Source: an uncultured Pontibacter sp.
Lineage (GTDB): Bacteria; Bacteroidota; Bacteroidia; Cytophagales; Hymenobacteraceae
NCBI RefSeq assembly: GCF_947499215.1
Contig: NZ_CANMNI010000003.1
Coordinates: forward strand, 434,001-498,000
Direction of reading: 5' to 3'
Length of the DNA: 64,000 nucleotides
Shown: one piece after another, positions 32,809 to 45,579 of the stretch
How the letters are laid out: each line of letters begins with the position of its first letter
How positions within the stretch are numbered: the first letter of the stretch is position 1
Program-made: the position numbers and the translations under genes
Notes under the pieces: generated by a model
Database searches by the model: none
Told to the model about the DNA's origin: nothing
Seen by the model: the letters and a program-made list of their open reading frames with translations, nothing else

Positions 32809-35580
32809 CTACGCTTCAGCCGCCGCTCTTTCTTTCTCTTTACGTCTGTTGATGCTGAAGCGGATGGTCTTCTCAATCGTCACGATGATCAGCAGGATCA
32901 CACCGGCCCCGAAAATACGGAGAATTTGCATGGTATCGAGTGGTGCGGAACCGAACAGTACGTTCATGATCGGCAGGTATATGAACAGCGCTTGAAAGAA
33001 GAACATAGCTGCTATGCCGTAATATACCCACATGTTACTGAAGAAACCAATCTCCCGCATGGGCCGCACCAGCGAGCGGCAACTGAGCAGGTAGAAAGAC
33101 TCGAGCACCACAAACACGGTAGTGGCCACGGTGCGTGCCTCTGCTACATCGGTACCCAGTATGCGGCGTTCGTACAGGTATAGCCCGAAGGCGGCGATGA
33201 GCAACAGCGTACCTACCAGCAAGGTGCGCATAATCAAGTCTTTAGTCAGGATCGGTTCGTTGGTGGGACGAGGCGGCCGATCCATGATGCCGGGTTCCTT
33301 CGGTTCAAATGCCAGCGTGAGACCAAGCAGCACGGCTGTGGTCATGTTAATCCAGAGCAGCTGCACCGGCTGCACCGGCAGCTGCGTACCGAGAATAACG
33401 GCGGCCAGAATCACCAAACCCTCGCCCAAGTTGGTTGGCAGCGTCCAGACGATGAACTTGGTCAGGTTATCAAACACGCTGCGGCCCTCCTCCACGGCTC
33501 CTTCTATAGAGGAGAAGTTGTCGTCGGTAAGCACCATGTCCGAGGCATCTTTGGCCACGTCGGTGCCCGTTATACCCATCGCTATCCCGATGTTTGACTG
33601 CTTTAGGGCAGGGCCGTCGTTCACCCCGTCGCCTGTCATGGCCACTACATGGTCGCGGGCCTGCAGGGCTTTTACGAGGCGCAGTTTCTGGTCCGGCGAC
33701 ACGCGGGCGAACACTGCCGTATTTTCAGCCACATCCTCCAGTTCCTTGTCTTCTATCTGCTGCAGCTCCTTGCCGGTGATGGCTTTTAGTTTACCGTTTT
33801 CTCTAACGCCTCTCAGTCCGATCTGGCTGGCAATGGCCGAAGCCGTCACGGCATGATCACCGGTGATCATTTTTACGTCTATACCTGCCTGCTGGCAGAG
33901 TTTCACGGCCTCTACAGCCTCTTGTCGTGGTGGGTCGATCATGCCCTGCAGACCAAGAAATACCACTCCCGAGCGCATGTGCTCGTGGTCGATGCCGTCT
34001 CGACCGTCCACTTCGGCCATACCGAAAGCCAACACGCGAAGCCCTTCGCTGGCCATGTGCTCTACCTGCTTGTTAATGGCTTCAGGGTCTAAAGGCACTG
34101 TTTCTCCGTCTGGCAGCATCATGCTTTCGCTGCGTTCCAACAATGCCTCTACAGAGCCCTTTAGGTAGATTACATTTCGTTCGCCATCGTGCAGGGTGGC
34201 CATGTACTGGTGCTCCGACTCAAAAGGAATAGTGTCTTTGCGCGGTAGCTTTTGCTCCAGTTCACTTCTGTCGAATCCGGCCTTCTGTGCGGAAACCACC
34301 AGCGCCCCCTCGGTTGGGTCCCCTTCAATGGACCACTGGCCTTCTTTCTCCTTCACCGAACTGTCGTTGCAGAGCAGGCCCGCGATCAGGAGTTGTTTCA
34401 GTGCCTTGTTCGTACCCGTTTCTGTCTGCTCCTCGGCTTCCTTAATCTGACCCTCCGGACGGTAGCCCAGTCCGGTCACAGCATACACTTTGTGGCCGGC
34501 TACGATCTGTTGCACGGTCATCTGGTTTTCGGTGAGAGTGCCGGTTTTGTCGGAGCAGATCACGTTGGTGCTACCCAGTGTCTCCACAGCCACCAACTTG
34601 CGGATAATGGCGCGACGTCTTGCCATTTTTGAAACACCCAGCGCCAGCATGATCGTAACAGCCACAGGCAGACCTTCAGGTATAGCGCCAACCGCTAGCG
34701 CCACGGCCACCATAAAAGTATCGCCCCATGCCCCGCCTCTTGAAATTTCCACGGCAAACACCGCAGCAGCCAACCCTAAAATCACCCAAAGCAGCAGGTG
34801 GCTGAACTTCTTGATTTTACGGGTGAGTGGTGTCTCTAAATCCTGTGCGCTCGAGATAGATTCCTGTATCTTGCCCACCTCTGTTTTATCGCCGGTGCCC
34901 ACCACAACGCCTGTCGCCTGTCCGTAAGTGACCACCGTGGAGGAGAACCCCATCGAGAAGCGGTCGCCAAGCACATCGTCTGCCGCAACGGGGGCAGCGT
35001 TCTTCTCCACCGCCACCGATTCACCGGTCAGTGCCGATTCGTCCACTTTTACATCACGCACGTGCACCAAGCGCACATCCGCCGGAAACTTGTCGCCTGA
35101 CTGCACCAGCACGATGTCGCCGGGCACGAGTTCCTGTGCGTTGATGTTATGCTTGTTTCCATTCCGGATCACCTGTGCTTTGGCTGTCATGCTGCGGGCC
35201 AAGGCATCTATGGCAGCCAGTGCCTTCGACTCCTGCACATAACCGATGATGGCGTTGATAAACACCACTGCGAAGATCACGGCAGAGTCGATATACTCTT
35301 CCAGCAGGAAGGTGACCACAGTGGCTGCCAACAGGATGTAAATAAGCGGCTGATGAAACTGCAGCAGGAAACGCACCAAGGCGCTTTGCTGCTTCTTGGG
35401 TGTCATTACGTTGCGGCCGTAGAGCTCCTGTCGCTTTTCAACCTCCTCGTCCGTGAGTCCTTTTTTGGGTGATACGTTCAGCAGTTCGAGGGCCTCTTGC
35501 GGGTCAATGCTGTGCCAGTCGTACTGCTGGTCAGGCTTTAACGGGCTTGTGCTTACTCTTTTCTGTTCTGTTACGCTCAT
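32809..35580 (-). CDS. P-type cation ATPase, type IIA-like (PacL/CtpF group)
   Basis: 923 aa. Cation-ATPase N-terminal domain (about 22-90), TGES (185-188), PEGLP (301-305), DKTGTLT with phosphorylated Asp344, and GDGVNDGP near 650. PEGLP on M4 puts it with type II Ca/Na/K-like pumps. On M6 the segment [16 protein letters not shown] lacks the Asp found at the NxxTDG site of SERCA, so ion specificity may differ. Inner-membrane export pump for a mono- or divalent cation. A tightly spaced hydrolase gene follows (15 bases). Confidence 0.9.
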
Positions 35581-35726
35581 ATTCGGTCTGATTTTTCGTG
35601 TGTATGCGCATCTCTGAAAGCGTCAAAAAGGCTTGACGGCTCACAGGGGAGCATGTATTAATTCCAATACAAGGTGAGTATTTGAATTAACTGGCCACTG
35701 AGGGTACTGTGTTGTAATACGGAGAA

Positions 35727-36497
35727 TTACTGCGTCAGGTAGGCACCGTCTACAGCGTAGTAGGAGCCTGTTACGAAAGAGGCTTTGTCGGAACTCAGCC
35801 AGATAACGAGCTCCGCCACCTCCTCTGGCTCCCCCAGTCGACCAATTGGGTGCTTGGAAGCCAGAAACTGCAGCGTGTCTTCGCCCATGCCGGTGTCGGT
35901 GAGGAGAGGCGTTTTGATGAAGGCCGGGCCGATGGCGTTGATGCGTATACCTTGGGAGGCGTATTCAATGCCGCCGTTTTTTGTGAGTCCCACCACACCA
36001 TGCTTAGCGGCCACGTATGCGGCGGAATTGGCAAAGCCCACCTGTCCCAGTATGGAGGAGTTATTGACAATGGCCCCGCCGCCGTTCTGCAGCATCTGCC
36101 GTATCTGGAAGTGCATGCAGTAAAAAACGCTGTTCAGGTTTATATTGATCACTTTGTTCCAGCCCTCAATGCTCATGTCACCAATCGGGTTGGACTCACC
36201 GCCTATACCTGCATTGTTAAAGGCGATATCCAGCCTCCCGAATTTCTCCACGGCCTGCTGTACCATGCGTTCGCAGTCTTCCGGCTTCGACACATCGCCC
36301 AGCACAAAAATAGCTTTGCCGCCCTGTTGTTCAATTTCTCGCACTACCTGCAGGCCCGGTTCTTCGTGTATGTCCGACACCACTACATGGGCGCCTTCGC
36401 GGGCGTATTGCAGCGCCGTGGATTTGCCTATGCCCGAGGAACCGCCTGTTACCAGAGCCACTTTGCCTGAAAACTGTCTTTGAGTATCTGTTGCCAT
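35727..36497 (-). CDS. SDR family oxidoreductase
   Basis: 256 aa from ATG 36497 (a TTG nine bases upstream is less likely). Classical SDR: cofactor loop TGGSSGIGK (about 16-24), NNAGIGG (about 90-96), active-site Ser in NNSSILG, YxxxK in YVAAKHG (about 160-165). VVSDIHEE after beta-2 suggests NAD+ preference. Likely oxidises or reduces an alcohol or sugar; substrate unknown. Stand-alone gene. Confidence 0.9.
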   Translation of the reverse strand: MATDTQRQFSGKVALVTGGSSGIGKSTALQYAREGAHVVVSDIHEEPGLQVVREIEQQGGKAIFVLGDVSKPEDCERMVQQAVEKFGRLDIAFNNAGIGGESNPIGDMSIEGWNKVININLNSVFYCMHFQIRQMLQNGGGAIVNNSSILGQVGFANSAAYVAAKHGVVGLTKNGGIEYASQGIRINAIGPAFIKTPLLTDTGMGEDTLQFLASKHPIGRLGEPEEVAELVIWLSSDKASFVTGSYYAVDGAYLTQ

Positions 36498-36709
36498 TTT
36501 TTTCAAAGTTTAGGATGGGTATACTTTATCTATAACGCAAAACTCGACAACAGGCCTGCATAAAAGAATGACTTGAGTCATTAATAAAAACGTTCCTTGT
36601 CAACCCTCGACACTTTTGGAGGTATTGATGCGGCGAGAGAGCGTCCTATGGCAGGGAGATTATGCTCTTAGGCACCCATACGCCAGCCTGTCTGTGGGAT
36701 AAATGTGAA

Positions 36710-37171
36710 CTAGCCGCGGTGGCTCTCAGGAGCTACCGGGAATAGTGGCTGAACCTCCTTTGGCATCTGTGTGGCGATATGCTGCAACTGGCCCTCTGTG
36801 AGGTAGTGCGTACCCAGCGAAGTGAGGACCATCGCGATCAGATTTTCCGTGGACTGTGACCAGTTGAACTGCTGCTCTCCGTGTCTGGCCTGTTCCTGCT
36901 TTACGGCCTCCTTGAGTTCTTCAAGGGTATCGAACTGCAGTGGCTGATCCCTGTATTGCCAGTGCTCTGTAAAGACTGCTTTCAGAAACATGGGCAGCTG
37001 TGAGAGCACGTGCAATGACTCACTTATCGCGATCCGGTCGCGCAGAGTATGCAGGACGGCCCTGAGCAGAATATAGGCTTGTCCTTTTTCTTGCGGGTGC
37101 CCCAACTCAGCTGCCAACTGATTGAGGTACGCATTGCCTTCCTGCGCGAATTTTTCAAAATAGTTTGCCAT
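36710..37171 (-). CDS. DUF2267 domain protein
   Basis: 153 aa, all-helical. The pattern QEKGQAYILLRAVLHTLRDRI (about 27-47) followed by LSQLPMFLKAVFTEHW (57-72) is the DUF2267 signature; the second half repeats the helical unit (HYLTEGQLQHIATQMPKEVQPLF). Family function unknown; often seen near stress or envelope genes. Same direction as the amidoligase pair but separated by 123 bp. Confidence 0.85.
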   Translation of the reverse strand: MANYFEKFAQEGNAYLNQLAAELGHPQEKGQAYILLRAVLHTLRDRIAISESLHVLSQLPMFLKAVFTEHWQYRDQPLQFDTLEELKEAVKQEQARHGEQQFNWSQSTENLIAMVLTSLGTHYLTEGQLQHIATQMPKEVQPLFPVAPESHRG

Positions 37172-37294: not shown

Positions 37295-38221
37295 TTACAG
37301 CCTGTTTTCTCCCAGTTGCTTTTCCAGTTCGTTCTCCACTTCCTTGGCTGGTTCGGAGAGTGCTGTTTGCAGGTCTTTTTCCTCTATCTGCTGATTAACC
37401 AGCCGTGCCTGCTGCACTAAACCTTTGAAAAGCCGACGATGCCAGCTGCTATGGGGCAGGTACTCCGGGTGCCACTGCACCCCGATCATAAACTCCTGCT
37501 CCGGGTGCTCTATACCTTGTACTACCCGATTTGGCTCCCTCGCTACGATATCCATGGACTCGCCCGTCTCTTTTACCGCTTGGTTATGCAGGGCGTTCAC
37601 GCGGAGTCGCTGTGTTCCCAGCACTTCTGCCAGCTTGCTTCCTGCTTTTATGTGCACCTTTTTCACCGGAAACACACTGGCGGGGTTCGGCTCCTCTAAG
37701 TAAAATGTATTGATGTCCTGATAAAGCGTGCCGCGGAAGTATACGTTCATCAGCTGTGCCCCACGGCAGATGCCCAGCACAGGAAGACCTTTCTGCACCG
37801 CTTGGTCCAGCAACTGCAACTCCAAGTGGTCGCGGGCGCGGTCGAGCCCGAATGTTAGTTTGCGACTCATCAATTTTCGGATAAAAAACACCGCCGGATA
37901 GTAAATCCAGCTGATAAAGCGGCCCACCCGGTGGAAGATGTTTTTACGGGGGTGCTGCAGGGTGCGCTGCAGGTATTCCTCCATCACATGCTCCTGCTCA
38001 TAGATGGAGGGGTCCACATCCGCTCCGCCACCAATAATAAGTCCCTGTAGACCGTCAGCAGTGCGGGGCCTCGATGGCGTGATGCGCACAGGTCTGCCGC
38101 CGGCGAGCAGTACCGATAGCGCCGTGAAGAACCAAGCGGCGCTGCCCCCTTTGTCTGGTCCGGTGACCCCAATGGTGGGCCTGCCGCGGTGTATCTTGTT
38201 CTCTGATCTCAGGATAGCCAT
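37295..38221 (-). CDS. Class-I glutamine amidotransferase-like hydrolase (peptidase C26, PuuD-like)
   Basis: 308 aa from ATG 38221; a GTG at 38242 is possible. In either case the start lies inside the end of the amidoligase gene. Nucleophile elbow PVLGICRGAQLMN (Cys about 125) and C-terminal VQWHPEY with His and Glu complete the Cys-His-Glu triad of gamma-glutamyl-gamma-aminobutyrate hydrolases. A hydrophobic insert (about 82-105, RFISWIYYPAVFFIRKLM) is not usual for PuuD and may contact the membrane. Predicted to cleave a gamma-glutamyl-type or other amide, perhaps the product of its overlapping neighbour. Confidence 0.87.
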   Translation of the reverse strand: MAILRSENKIHRGRPTIGVTGPDKGGSAAWFFTALSVLLAGGRPVRITPSRPRTADGLQGLIIGGGADVDPSIYEQEHVMEEYLQRTLQHPRKNIFHRVGRFISWIYYPAVFFIRKLMSRKLTFGLDRARDHLELQLLDQAVQKGLPVLGICRGAQLMNVYFRGTLYQDINTFYLEEPNPASVFPVKKVHIKAGSKLAEVLGTQRLRVNALHNQAVKETGESMDIVAREPNRVVQGIEHPEQEFMIGVQWHPEYLPHSSWHRRLFKGLVQQARLVNQQIEEKDLQTALSEPAKEVENELEKQLGENRL

Positions 38222-39213
38222 TGCTTTGTTCTTTTGATCCACTTTGAATCGAAGCCAATGAGGGTATTTTCTTTCAGGGAAAGGTACTCGTCACTGAGGT
38301 GCGCTATTTTCTCATGGTCGCTCGCCAGTTCCTCCACCCGCACCCAGTTGTTCCACTCCTGGGCCAGCGTCCAGTCAGGTTGTGCGATAGAACTGTTGGG
38401 TAGCCGGTAATGAAAAGCATTCCGCGCTTTTACCTTGCCAAGCTTGGTGTACTGTGCCAGCATGCCCTCCTGAAGGAAGGCGAGAATAGGGTATAGGTCG
38501 AGCGGGCGATTGCGATCTGGGTTATGCGTGTGGTAATCTTGTGTGAATTCCAACAAGTCCGGGGCATAGGCCGGATTTAGCACAAGGTCCACGTAGGCAG
38601 CAGGATAAGGATCAATGAAAGGACTGATCTTGCGGGCCAAATCGGTTTGGCCTGCCTCCAACAGCCAAGGGTACAGCAGTATAAAAGCCCGCAGGTAAGC
38701 CAGTATTGTATCGGTTTCCAGATTGGGCGCTTCTACGTTAATATGGGTGCCAAAGGCATTGGTAAGAAAGGATTGTGTTCCTTCCGCATGGAGCCGGTAA
38801 AGGGCCTCCCGCAGTTTTTCTATCTGCTCCAGCTGTGTGCAGGGGATGGGCGGACAGGCAATCTCGTTCGGGAACACTTTGCCTATCAGATTGCTGAGGG
38901 TTTCCTCCACCTCGTCCTCCAAGGTGCCATTGCCGATTCTGACGTCCTCAAGGCGCAGATTAAATGTCTCAAACACTTTCTTATACCGCTTTTCCGTCAA
39001 GAGCGTGAGGTCAAACTCAACAGTAAAATCACCCAGTTCGGTATCTTTTACCTCTTGCTTAAAGCGATTCTCTTTCTTTATTTCCCCCCCATACAGCTCT
39101 TGTATCAACCGGGCAGAGGCTTCGATGCTCACATTCGTGTATTCCAGCTCAAAACCCACTGTGCGCAGTTCGTCCTGCTCATTATACAATATAGGAGGAT
39201 GTCTAAATTTCAT
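38209..39213 (-). CDS. Amidoligase_2 family COOH-NH2 ligase
   Basis: 334 aa. Glutamine-synthetase-fold amidoligase: GFELEYTN (20-27) supplies the metal-binding Glu pair, FTVEFDLTLL (63-72) the next strand, and NAFGTHINVEAPN (about 177-189) the conserved His motif. Predicted to form amide bonds between a carboxylate and an amine using ATP; the family has been predicted from genome context to make small peptides or modified proteins together with class-I amidotransferases. The gene overlaps the amidotransferase gene downstream (13 bases or more), and a gamma-glutamyltransferase lies across the divergent promoter region. Substrate unknown. Confidence 0.85.
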   Translation of the reverse strand: MKFRHPPILYNEQDELRTVGFELEYTNVSIEASARLIQELYGGEIKKENRFKQEVKDTELGDFTVEFDLTLLTEKRYKKVFETFNLRLEDVRIGNGTLEDEVEETLSNLIGKVFPNEIACPPIPCTQLEQIEKLREALYRLHAEGTQSFLTNAFGTHINVEAPNLETDTILAYLRAFILLYPWLLEAGQTDLARKISPFIDPYPAAYVDLVLNPAYAPDLLEFTQDYHTHNPDRNRPLDLYPILAFLQEGMLAQYTKLGKVKARNAFHYRLPNSSIAQPDWTLAQEWNNWVRVEELASDHEKIAHLSDEYLSLKENTLIGFDSKWIKRTKQWLS

Positions 39214-39407
39214 AATAGGCGTTTAATCCTGATTCATAAACTAAAACGGTAATGCCCTGATACGGTTATAAGGCGCAGTTCTAGGCTATTGCCAGTGTTT
39301 CTCTAGTGCAGGCTTTGCTTTTCGTACACGGGAATGCGGCGTGCTTCAAAACCTGAGCAGAACCAAAAGGGTACAGAGGTATACGCATCAGAAAAGAGCA
39401 GCAAACT

Positions 39408-41099
39408 GTGACAATCAGATACATCACCCTATTTTTCGCTTTCATATTCATTTCCGGCTGCGCAGGCTGGGACACGGACACGACAGGGCGAATCACCCAA
39501 AAGGCGATGGTGGTGTCGGCGCATCCGTTGGCATCCGAAGTGGGGTCCGACATCCTGCGGCGCGGAGGCAATGCCGTGGATGCGGCAGTAGCCGTGCAGT
39601 TTGCCTTGGCTGTGGTATATCCCGATGCCGGGAATATTGGAGGAGGGGGATTCCTTGTGTTACGCCAGCAGGATGGCAGCGTGGATGCACTGGATTACCG
39701 GGAAAAGGCACCCGGCAAAGCCCGCCGCGATATGTACTTGGATGAACAGGGCAATGTGGTGGAGGAGCTAAGTTTTAAAGGGCACTTGGCAGCGGGAGTC
39801 CCCGGCACGGTGGACGGTATGGTAGAGGCCCACGAAAGGTATGGCAGTATGCCATGGGCCGAGTTGGTGCAGCCGGCGGTAGAACTGGCCGCCAAGGGCT
39901 TTCCACTTACCCGGAAAGAAGCGAAAAAACTGAACGAACAAAGAAAAGATTTTATACAGTACAACACGCAGCGGCCCTCTTTTATCATCCAAGACCGCTG
40001 GCGGGAAGGTGACAACCTCCGCTTGGCGGAACTGGCCCATACCTTAAAGCGGATCAGGGATCGGGGCAGGGCAGGCTTCTATGAAGGCGAGACAGCAGAA
40101 CTGATTGTGGCTGAAATGCAGCGGGGTGGCGGCATCATATCCAAAGCGGACTTAGCCGGCTACCGCTCCGTCTGGCGTCAGCCGCTGACCGGGCAGGTGG
40201 GTGACTACCGCATCATCTCCATGCCACCCCCTTCCAGCGGAGGTATTGCCCTCATGCAGCTGCTCAGTATAGCCGAAGACTATCCGCTGAAAGACTGGGG
40301 CTGGAACTCCGCCGAAGCCGCACACCTGATGGTAGAGGCCGAGAGAAGGGTATATGCTGATCGCGCGCGCCACCTAGGCGACCCGGATTTTTACGATGTG
40401 CCGGTAGAGGCGCTGCTCGATACGGACTATATCAGGAGCAGGATGGATGGCGTTTCGCTGCAAAAGGCAACCGATAGCGATGCCGTTTCTGCGGGTATGC
40501 CTGCGCCGGTCGAGAGCCCAAACACCACACACTACTCCATTGTGGACCAAGAGGGGAATGCGGTTTCTGTGACCACCACCCTCAACAGCAGTTTTGGCTC
40601 CAAGGTGTTTGTAGCCGGGGCTGGTTTTCTGCTCAACAACGAAATGGATGACTTCAGTGTGAAGCCCGGACACCCGAACAGCTACGGACTGGTGGGAGGG
40701 GAGGCCAATGCCGTCGCCCCGGGCAAACGCATGCTGAGTTCTATGACACCCACCATTCTGGAGCGGGACGGGCAACTCTACATGGTCATCGGCAGTATGG
40801 GTGGCTCCACGATCATCACCACTGTGTACCAGATTATCTTGAACGTAACGGTGCACGGTATGTCCATGCAGGGGGCGGTCAACGCCGGCCGCTTCCATCA
40901 CCAGTGGCGACCAGACTGGATACTGTCCGAGTGGGGGGCGCTGGGCTTTGGCACCGGGCTTGAAATGTGGTGGCGAGGACACAGGATAGCTCCAAAAAAT
41001 GGGGGAATTGGCAGAGCGGCAGGTATACTGGTGCTGCCCGACGGTCGCTTGGAGGGAGGCGCCGACCCGAGAGGCGATGATGCGGCGGCCGGTTTTTAA
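39408..41099 (+). CDS. ggt: Gamma-glutamyltransferase lipoprotein
   Basis: 563 aa, GTG start. Lipobox ISGC (Cys18) indicates a membrane-anchored periplasmic enzyme. Large-subunit motifs: VVSAHPLASEVGSDILRRGG (35-54), GNIGGGGFLVLR (75-86). Autocleavage and nucleophile site NTTHYSIVD with Thr373 starting the small subunit; later GSMGGSTII and MLSSMTPTI bind the gamma-glutamyl group. Cleaves gamma-glutamyl compounds such as glutathione or transfers the glutamyl group to acceptors. Divergent from the amidoligase gene. Confidence 0.92.
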   Translation: MTIRYITLFFAFIFISGCAGWDTDTTGRITQKAMVVSAHPLASEVGSDILRRGGNAVDAAVAVQFALAVVYPDAGNIGGGGFLVLRQQDGSVDALDYREKAPGKARRDMYLDEQGNVVEELSFKGHLAAGVPGTVDGMVEAHERYGSMPWAELVQPAVELAAKGFPLTRKEAKKLNEQRKDFIQYNTQRPSFIIQDRWREGDNLRLAELAHTLKRIRDRGRAGFYEGETAELIVAEMQRGGGIISKADLAGYRSVWRQPLTGQVGDYRIISMPPPSSGGIALMQLLSIAEDYPLKDWGWNSAEAAHLMVEAERRVYADRARHLGDPDFYDVPVEALLDTDYIRSRMDGVSLQKATDSDAVSAGMPAPVESPNTTHYSIVDQEGNAVSVTTTLNSSFGSKVFVAGAGFLLNNEMDDFSVKPGHPNSYGLVGGEANAVAPGKRMLSSMTPTILERDGQLYMVIGSMGGSTIITTVYQIILNVTVHGMSMQGAVNAGRFHHQWRPDWILSEWGALGFGTGLEMWWRGHRIAPKNGGIGRAAGILVLPDGRLEGGADPRGDDAAAGF

Positions 41100-44385: not shown

Positions 44386-45579
44386 ATGAACCAAAGTCTC
44401 CTGCGCCTCTCCCAAATCGCCCAAAAAGAATCACGCATCATCATCGGACTGATGTCGGGTACTTCGCTTGATGGACTGGATGTGGCGCTGTGCCGTTTCA
44501 CCGGTTATGGCACCGCCACGCAGGCACACGTCGAGCGCTTCAGTTCTATACCTTATGAGGCCGCGTTCAGGGAAAGGGTAAAGGCGATTTTTTCGAAACG
44601 GCAGGTTGATTTAGAGCAGGTCTGTCTGATGAACGCCTTTATCGGCAGTTACCATGCGGAGTTGATCAATGCGTGTTTAGCAGACTGGGGGGTAAAGGCG
44701 GAAGAGGTGGATGTGATTGCCAGCCACGGACAGACCATTTACCATGCACCGGCCTCGCTGCACGGCATCTCGGGCATGCCAAACGCTACACTGCAGATCG
44801 GCGACGGCGACCACATTGCGGTTAAAACCGGTATCATTACGCTCAGCGACTTTAGGCAGAAGCACGTAGCAGCGGGAGGCGAAGGGGCTCCGCTGGCAGT
44901 ATACGGAGACTACCTGCTATTTTCTGAGAAAGGAAAGAACCGGATTCTGCTGAATATTGGGGGCATCTCTAACTTTACCTTCCTGCCCGGCGACCTCGAC
45001 ACGTCCCGCATTTTCTCAACAGACTTGGGGCCGGGCAACACCCTGATGGATGCCTATGTGCAGGCGCATTTTCCGGGGCAGACTTACGATGCCGACGCGG
45101 CCATCGCGACTCGGGGCAGGTATAGCGCCCCTTTGGTGGAGGAGCTGCTAAATCACCCTTTCTTCGGACATTCTATACCTAAAACTACAGGTCCCGAGCT
45201 GTTCAACCTAGCATACTTGGAGCAGGCACAGCGCAAGTCCGACACAACTGGCCTTTCGCCTGAAGATGTGATGGCCAGCCTGAACCGCTTTACAGCCGAA
45301 GGTATAGCCAAGGCTGTGAAAGATGCCGGAGTGGAGCATGACGCTGAAATATTTTTGAGCGGAGGGGGGATGCACAACCCGCTGCTACTCGAGAACCTGC
45401 GGGACCTACTGACAGCTGTTCCGCTGCGCGACACGCAGGCGCTGGGTATATTGCCCGATGCCAAAGAGGCAGTGCTTTTTGCCACCTTGGCGAACGAGTG
45501 TCTGGCAGCGGAGCGCATCGATTTCGGAAGCGCCCGTATACCTTCCATTCGGATGGGAAAGATCAGTCTGCCGGATTAA
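44386..45579 (+). CDS. anmK: Anhydro-N-acetylmuramic acid kinase
   Basis: 397 aa. N-terminal IGLMSGTSLDGLDVALC (about 20-36) is the AnmK phosphate-binding signature, with VDVIASHGQTIYH (about 108), QIGDGDHIA (about 137), RILLNIGGISNFTF (about 186) and STDLGPGNTLMDA (about 214). Converts anhydro-MurNAc and water with ATP to MurNAc-6-phosphate during cell-wall recycling; cytoplasmic. Spaced 49 bases from the exporter and may be read through. Confidence 0.95.
   Translation: MNQSLLRLSQIAQKESRIIIGLMSGTSLDGLDVALCRFTGYGTATQAHVERFSSIPYEAAFRERVKAIFSKRQVDLEQVCLMNAFIGSYHAELINACLADWGVKAEEVDVIASHGQTIYHAPASLHGISGMPNATLQIGDGDHIAVKTGIITLSDFRQKHVAAGGEGAPLAVYGDYLLFSEKGKNRILLNIGGISNFTFLPGDLDTSRIFSTDLGPGNTLMDAYVQAHFPGQTYDADAAIATRGRYSAPLVEELLNHPFFGHSIPKTTGPELFNLAYLEQAQRKSDTTGLSPEDVMASLNRFTAEGIAKAVKDAGVEHDAEIFLSGGGMHNPLLLENLRDLLTAVPLRDTQALGILPDAKEAVLFATLANECLAAERIDFGSARIPSIRMGKISLPD

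Follow-up and report, generated by a model that had tools for sequence, protein, structure and literature searches.

The 64,000-nucleotide stretch analysed here (hereafter the window), taken from contig NZ_CANMNI010000003.1 of an uncultured Pontibacter sp. (family Hymenobacteraceae, phylum Bacteroidota), carries a compact locus in which a ligase gene of the Amidoligase_2 family (PF12224) is followed by a gene for a class-I glutamine amidotransferase-like protein of the peptidase C26 family, with a divergent gamma-glutamyltransferase (GGT) gene next to them. Our main finding is that the core module consists of two genes, the Amidoligase_2 ligase and then the class-I C26 protein, which are paired far beyond chance and spread over several phyla. 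An upstream element resembling promoters of extracytoplasmic function (ECF) sigma factors accompanies the pair only in the window's family, and the linkage to GGT exceeds mere proximity only in the window's genus. The reading that we tentatively prefer, at a little less than an even chance, is that the two proteins are a membrane-associated gamma-glutamyl ligase and hydrolase, ECF-controlled in the window's family, to which an outer GGT was added in the genus.

All three genes lie where the first-pass annotation of this DNA had placed them, as judged from the list of open reading frames and Pfam, and its account of their arrangement was accurate: the ligase and C26 genes overlap, by 34 nt if C26 is read from its listed GTG (an alternative start, the ATG codon at 38221, would give an overlap of 13 nt), and GGT is divergent from the ligase with a start-to-start gap of 194 nt. 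The window genome (4.3 Mb) has one PF12224 gene, a single strong C26 match (131.8 bits, five others reaching at most 30.8 bits), three GGT genes and, away from the locus, one GCS2-family match. The features discussed below, some of which draw on AlphaFold2 (AF2) models, are as follows.

37295..38242, minus strand: peptidase C26/class-I glutamine amidotransferase-like partner, 315 aa (PF07722, triad, AF2 fold)
37844..37996, minus strand: C26 insertion, residues ~83-133 (D75-R137 spacing; hydrophobic helix 107-126 at 37865-37924)
38209..39213, minus strand: Amidoligase_2 ligase, 334 aa, first gene of the pair (PF12224, invariant residues, AF2 fold)
39246..39267, minus strand: AAC-N16-CGT, ECF-sigma-promoter-like, upstream of the ligase (37/37 family loci)
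39350..39372, plus strand: AAC-N17-GGT (AACC..GGGTA) upstream of GGT (conserved in the window's genus, 15/16 loci)
39408..41099, plus strand: GGT with a lipobox-like N-terminus, genus-level companion (TIGR00066, PF01019)

Co-occurrence of the ligase and C26 genes

Three sets of genomes were compared. In a phylum survey of 296 Bacteroidota genomes, 28 gave a PF12224 match, which in one case was weak and partial; stretches of at most 20 kb were fetched around the 27 matches other than the window's, and 26 of these hold a ligase, whereas L064 (genome G070) has only a partial 22-bit PF12224 match and no ligase in the fetched stretch. A scan of named genomes confirmed at least 586 relatives, of which the best 80 were kept (best-80 loci, L065-L144); this set shares some genomes with the survey, is ranked by similarity rather than sampled, and is dominated by names of saline- and soda-lake bacteria from several phyla. 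Finally, 200 genomes of the window's family were sampled. The ligase is present in 37, including 21 of the window's genus with the window itself, and the 36 loci fetched besides the window comprise 20 from the same genus and 16 others.

C26 adjoins the ligase in 25 of the 26 survey loci, lies directly downstream of it in 78 of the 80 best-80 loci and stands beside it in 34 of the 36 other family loci. The first-pass annotation had made its proposal depend on the genes being co-conserved, and for the pair they strongly are. Seen from the side of C26, the type carrying a hydrophobic insert (at least 336 bits to the C26 profile; see below) occurs in 26 of the 296 Bacteroidota genomes, all 26 of which carry the ligase, and the next C26 score among these genomes, 145 bits, comes from an alignment confined to the region beyond the insert. 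Distance matrices of the ligase and C26 are also correlated over 71 pairs (Pearson 0.85, Spearman 0.62, with none of 999 permutations as high), a result that would arise from shared vertical descent alone too. At one locus, L280 (G659:C37:266000-279439), the ligase is split in two frames (profile 2-128 and 114-328) and the C26 gene reads through; here either a broken ligase or an assembly error stands beside a retained C26.

On a quick ligase tree the window ligase joins that of Rhodocytophaga aerolata (97 SH-aLRT), and the two are weakly grouped with Balneolota ligases. Phyla are largely, but not fully, sorted on this tree (16 label changes where at least 10 are needed, with a long-branch warning), and within the sampled part of the window's family the distribution of the pair is patchy. 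Horizontal movement of the pair is plausible. Eight stretches in viral contigs matched a pattern for relatives, and none was confirmed.

The composition of the best-80 set raises the idea of osmolyte turnover, with the pair making and breaking an amide solute in halophiles, which we consider very improbable. Many names in the set are Balneolaceae, Ectothiorhodospira, Thioalkalivibrio, Wenzhouxiangella and CSSed and GSL bins, whose habitats we take to be saline or soda; such a bias counts for less in a list ordered by similarity, and Rhodocytophaga aerolata, the nearest named relative, is presumably no halophile. Nor does ectoine synthase, used as one marker only, lend support: among Gammaproteobacteria it scores above the cut-off in 4 of 15 genomes with the ligase and in 34 of 259 others (one-sided p 0.14), and among the 296 Bacteroidota genomes it does not overlap with the ligase at all.

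The ligase

The ligase matches PF12224 with 196.8 bits (cut-off 22) over profile positions 3-244 of 245. In alignment A3, which comprises 88 sequences (the window, 7 of the 26 survey ligases and all 80 best-80 ligases, some from the same genomes), 21 ligase positions are invariant, among them E22, E24, D68, E117, N159, R194, R234, R236, R264, H268, R270 and E294, and E66 is kept in 83 of the 88. Residue 157 (38743-38745) is His in 62 sequences and Gln in 26, and it is His in all nine compared ligases whose C26 partner is of the short type described below; the position may correspond to a metal-binding His of glutamine synthetase (GS). The earlier proposal would have been undermined by a ligase without metal and ATP residues. 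This is not what we see, the conserved acidic and basic residues being invariant, with metal and ATP roles that we presume from GS and gamma-glutamylcysteine synthetase (GCS) as a whole rather than residue by residue.

The AF2 model of the ligase (predicted local distance difference test, pLDDT, 86.1; predicted TM-score, pTM, 0.86) can be superposed on glutamine synthetases (VIA) with Z 13.1 and a root-mean-square deviation of 3.4 over 209 aligned residues, pointing to a carboxylate-amine ligase of the GS/GCS fold. Foldseek matches are weak (best E 7.4e-3), and all 50 listed are GS, YbdK-type, glutamate-cysteine ligase (GCL) or Dop proteins; tied fold matches include GmaS and 1-naphthylamine GS. 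A search by sequence found no solved structure for the ligase, the best match (E 0.013) being a fibronectin/fibrinogen binding protein. Profile-profile comparison with small GCS2 and GS sets gave probabilities below 2 percent, but several rows had been wrongly extracted as short frames and the result was discarded.

The C26 partner and its hydrophobic insert

The partner matches PF07722 with 148.7 bits (cut-off 20.5), and its Cys-His-Glu triad (C159, H258, E260) is present in all 71 rows of alignment A4. This alignment leaves out 13 of the 78 best-80 partners, namely L082, L105, L125, L132, L135, L136 and L143 (truncated, long or odd frames), L069 (stops) and L094, L096, L097, L106 and L122 (unusually long BLAST stretches). 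Structures nearest to the AF2 model (pLDDT 85.7) are Lin1909 (Z 28.2), PuuD (27.6) and SpuA (26.6-27.0), while the best ammonia-type amidotransferase domain reaches Z 21.4. As far as the model goes, this ranking mildly favours gamma-glutamyl hydrolysis over ammonia supply, and only mildly because family kinship alone could yield the same order. The model also has a long C-terminal helix (266-314; 37301-37447), which is missing from most rows of the survey alignment.

A hydrophobic insert had been noted in the first-pass annotation at about residues 82-105. The insert is real, but its hydrophobic part lies further on, at residues ~109-121. It is located between D75 and R137, with a helix predicted by AF2 at 107-126, and it is a subfamily mark of ~35 residues: the D75-R137 spacing in A4 is bimodal, with 51-63 aa in 62 rows, 18-21 aa in 9 and none between. 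In 55 of the 62 insert-type A4 rows and in 25 of the 26 rows of A2, the 17 most hydrophobic consecutive residues lie in the insert; their mean Kyte-Doolittle value is at least 1.6 in 45 of those 62, and the C-terminal flank is net positive. Within the window's family the insert has a sequence like YYPALFFVRKLFSRK, and all 34 partners there carry it. C26 partners without it come from Campylobacterota-named records or their kin, some Gammaproteobacteria and one Rickettsiales, and the partner type (long or short) needs two changes on the ligase tree. The insert is probably a membrane-touching helix at the inner face; alternatively, it may serve as a lid or a partner interface. A role as a docking site for the ligase was considered and set aside, as no ligase column separates the partner types, a weak test with nine short-type rows only.

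The close pairing and the nature of the partner bear directly on the main rival explanation, glutamine-dependent amidation. Here C26 would be a glutaminase feeding ammonia to the amidoligase, which would amidate a carboxylate on an envelope precursor, much like MurT-GatD with an unrelated ligase fold. We regard this as a serious possibility, if a doubtful one. The pairing is almost always 1:1, between genes that overlap or lie close together, and has the look of two subunits. Moreover, phage PF12224 ligases occur with class-II (GATase_6) amidotransferases, according to the accessible parts of two papers (PMC3890496, PMC10580990), and that a single ligase family is accompanied by two unrelated classes of amidotransferase suggests ammonia supply as the common need; for one phage pair, cell-wall modification has been proposed (PMC10580990, in a passage citing Iyer 2009). 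Peptidoglycan-related genes lie near some loci as well: an AnmK-like cluster (anhydro-N-acetylmuramic acid kinase, an enzyme of peptidoglycan recycling) no more than eight genes away from the pair in 6 of the 37 family loci, and a DapF-like frame in four Ectothiorhodospira loci (L081, L104, L108, L113), either of which may be plain synteny. However, the structures nearest to the C26 model are those of hydrolases that act alone, not the glutamine amidotransferase domains of synthetases, ligases without a neighbouring C26 exist, and no ligase column tells the two partner types apart (nine short rows only). The accretion of GGT in the window's genus, too, fits gamma-glutamyl products better.

Upstream elements

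When the ligase-GGT spacers of 16 loci are aligned, two conserved blocks stand out in otherwise diverged DNA. The block upstream of the ligase, AAC-N16-CGT, is found in 37 of 37 family loci, with or without GGT (shuffled mean 0.92, maximum 4), although these loci are related and do not amount to 37 independent events. In the same loci it precedes 36 of 36 ligases as against 30 of 364 other gene starts, the latter figure exceeding shuffled expectation, so the element alone is not unusual; a related pattern does not exceed chance when the window is taken singly (7 matches where 3.61 are expected). ECF-sigma promoters are marked by AAC in their -35 and CGT in their -10 region (PMC3426412, accessible text), and the match suggests a promoter of this type. 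We consider the element confined to the window's family because distant lineages are without it; nor does it precede the ligase of L065, the nearest named relative. The loosest pattern (AAC, 15-18, C/GGT) is present in 23 of the 80 best-80 loci against a shuffled mean of 13.4 and maximum of 23, a slight excess that we leave uninterpreted.

The second block, AAC-N17-GGT, precedes GGT in 15 of the 16 loci (shuffled mean 0.60), and in the sixteenth, L278, it is visible by eye in the alignment further upstream. Neither element was found in the ~200 nt before the matched starts of the window genome's other two GGT genes. By eye, other conserved blocks stand upstream of the ligase in L038, L039, L040, L045, L049 and L054: ~GATTGAtAC/GATTGAAAC...TGTTTAA in one Balneolaceae group and TTTTCAA-CTTTTACA in another. 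Lineages seem to have their own upstream elements.

GGT and other neighbours

GGT matches PF01019 with 551.5 bits (cut-off 27) and the equivalog TIGR00066 with 546 bits (cut-off 357.85). Its N-terminus, a hydrophobic stretch ending in ISGC, is lipobox-like and agrees with the first-pass description of a lipoprotein. Among the 16 GGT-bearing loci the lipobox pattern is present in 11, four more have LLGC or TVGC (by eye), and L265 has none. A divergent GGT is found in 15 of the 20 other same-genus loci (16 of 21 with the window). Outside the genus it is beside the pair in none of the 26 survey loci and none of the 16 other family loci, nor is it within ~8 kb, where the contig allows, in any of the 80 best-80 loci. 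For this reason GGT is not generally needed beside the pair, and as an obligate third partner it is ruled out outside the window's genus; its complete dismissal, in turn, is countered by its retention within the genus. The conservation expected of the trio thus holds for the pair, across several phyla, and fails for GGT beyond the genus. The gamma-glutamyl cycle proposed from the three genes is, in its substrate and its direction, a conjecture; the retention of GGT in the genus does fit gamma-glutamyl chemistry. At one locus, L269, GGT is kept and the ligase has no neighbouring C26.

The outer neighbours of the 16 GGT-bearing loci vary. Even the most frequent outer families come within eight genes in only 9 of the 16, and none of the window's labelled outer neighbours occurs at L252 or L278. 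In the window's genus, then, the trio holds together amid changing surroundings, the general module being the pair. A single acquisition of GGT, inherited thereafter, would be enough to produce this pattern.

Wider neighbourhoods were compared by clustering the neighbours and not by annotating them individually, and names such as DapF-like and aldehyde-dehydrogenase-like were assigned by eye. The clusters look like lineage synteny, not substrate clues. This bears on amine catabolism or detoxification of the PuuA-PuuD/SpuA kind, in which the ligase would cap an amine with gamma-glutamate, an enzyme encoded elsewhere would oxidise it and C26 would free the glutamate. The C26 fold matches PuuD and SpuA, the GmaS and 1-naphthylamine GS found among the tied ligase fold matches make gamma-glutamyl amides, and an aldehyde-dehydrogenase-like frame lies near 4 of the 80 best-80 loci, three of them in Balneolota. 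Nevertheless, we hold this explanation to be quite unlikely: with no cluster of neighbours in more than 13 of the 80 loci, pathway genes do not seem to recur generally, C26 falls short of the PuuD equivalog, and the membrane-like insert is left without a role.

In the window itself, P-type ATPase, short-chain dehydrogenase/reductase (SDR) and DUF2267 genes lie downstream of the pair (32809-37171), and an AnmK gene lies on the GGT side of the locus (44386-45579). Of the 36 family loci, DUF2267 is near the pair in 2, namely L276 and L277, the window's nearest relatives; 7 loci have a P-type ATPase near the pair and 16 have an SDR, which in most cases is ~30 percent identical. Searches for Rfam families and tRNAs found none in the window.

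A possible make-and-unmake pair

If the preferred reading of a membrane-associated ligase and hydrolase is right, the ATP-dependent, GS-fold ligase would couple an amine X to a carboxylate, for which the gamma-carboxyl of glutamate is the likeliest candidate, and the C26 partner would hydrolyse the same kind of gamma-glutamyl bond through its Cys-His-Glu triad. As C26 would cut the type of bond that the ligase forms, the two would make and unmake gamma-glutamyl-X. The hydrophobic, basic-flanked helix found in most C26 partners examined probably holds C26 at the inner face of the membrane, and X would therefore likely be membrane-linked or exported. In the window's family, the candidate ECF-sigma-type promoter of the pair suggests an envelope-stress signal, and in the genus the divergent lipoprotein GGT could take off the gamma-glutamyl group outside or exchange it. 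The data show how the genes are arranged and co-occur, which residues are conserved, the insert, the promoter-like element and the retention of GGT in the genus, along with predicted folds; we infer that glutamate donates the acyl group, that C26 touches the membrane, that an ECF sigma factor controls the pair, which way the flow runs and what kind of molecule X is. A more specific version, which strikes us as unlikely, is an ECF-controlled system for writing and erasing marks, gamma-glutamyl or amide, on an envelope molecule linked to the membrane: the soluble ligase would write them, the tethered C26 would erase them inside and, in one genus, the lipoprotein GGT would erase them outside.

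A number of observations weigh against the preferred reading. Five ligases (L063, L099, L127, L269, L274) have no neighbouring C26, and among the clustered neighbours no third gene family recurs in more than 13 of the 80 best-80 loci or 11 of the 26 survey loci. The insert is absent from 10 of the 78 best-80 partners, is long without being hydrophobic in L137, and is modelled by AF2 as one helix of low to middling confidence next to a poorly predicted loop. Lin1909, PuuD and SpuA belong to the same C26 family, and their higher Z may reflect kinship, not activity; against the Arabidopsis gamma-glutamyl peptidase GGP1 the C26 model gives only Z 19.4. By sequence, C26 scores 64 bits of the 266 required for the PuuD equivalog NF008471 and 51.8 of the 250 required for the gamma-glutamyl-CDP-amidate hydrolase NF045546. 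Finally, AAC-N16-CGT is found within 170 nt in none of the 26 survey loci and in 2 of the 80 best-80 loci, and within 200 nt in 4 of these 80, at scattered distances.

The module is now defined well enough to be tested, comprising two genes, a greasy-insert partner type and one candidate promoter. The window's genus offers natural contrasts for metabolomics and lipidomics, with species that have the pair, species that have the pair plus GGT and species without a ligase match.

Comparison with known systems

PuuA-PuuD of E. coli and SpuA of Pseudomonas belong to the gamma-glutamylpolyamine pathway, which combines a GS-fold ligase with a C26 gamma-glutamyl hydrolase. The C26 fold is common to PuuD, SpuA and the window C26 model (Z 26.6-27.6). 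In contrast to PuuA, the window ligase is an Amidoligase_2 protein that aligns to the GS catalytic part only (chain residues from ~100 on), and in contrast to the Puu and Spu systems, C26 is far below the PuuD equivalog and has an extra hydrophobic insert, and the loci seem to have no generally recurring pathway genes. The gamma-glutamyl-CDP-amidate hydrolase family is the second-best NCBIfam match of C26, but the score is about a fifth of that required. In MurT-GatD, which amidates Gram-positive peptidoglycan, a ligase and a glutamine amidotransferase are likewise encoded together; according to the accessible text, MurT resembles Mur ligases, whereas the window ligase, as an Amidoligase_2 protein with a predicted GS fold, is not a Mur-type partner.

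Amidoligase-amidotransferase pairs were predicted by Iyer et al. (2009), as cited in later papers; as far as these citations go, the predicted pairs share with ours the PF12224 ligase family and the ligase-amidotransferase partnership. A phage study, in its accessible part, speculates that amidoligase genes aid nitrogen metabolism (PMC10945688). In the literature searched, which included the accessible text of PMC8976061, PMC6376114, PMC4431377, PMC12239564 and PMC7824862 and left most subscription papers outside, we recognised no biochemistry or substrate for PF12224. The ligase family and the idea of ligase-amidotransferase pairs are thus known already. To these our results add a C26 partner that carries an insert and is tied to the ligase, as well as the ECF-like element and the GGT of the genus, features that were not each searched for separately in print. 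The difference is clearest beside the phage pairs (PMC3890496, PMC10580990): there the partner, in the text accessible, is a class-II GATase_6 protein, whereas here it is a class-I C26 protein with an insert, joined in the window's genus by GGT.

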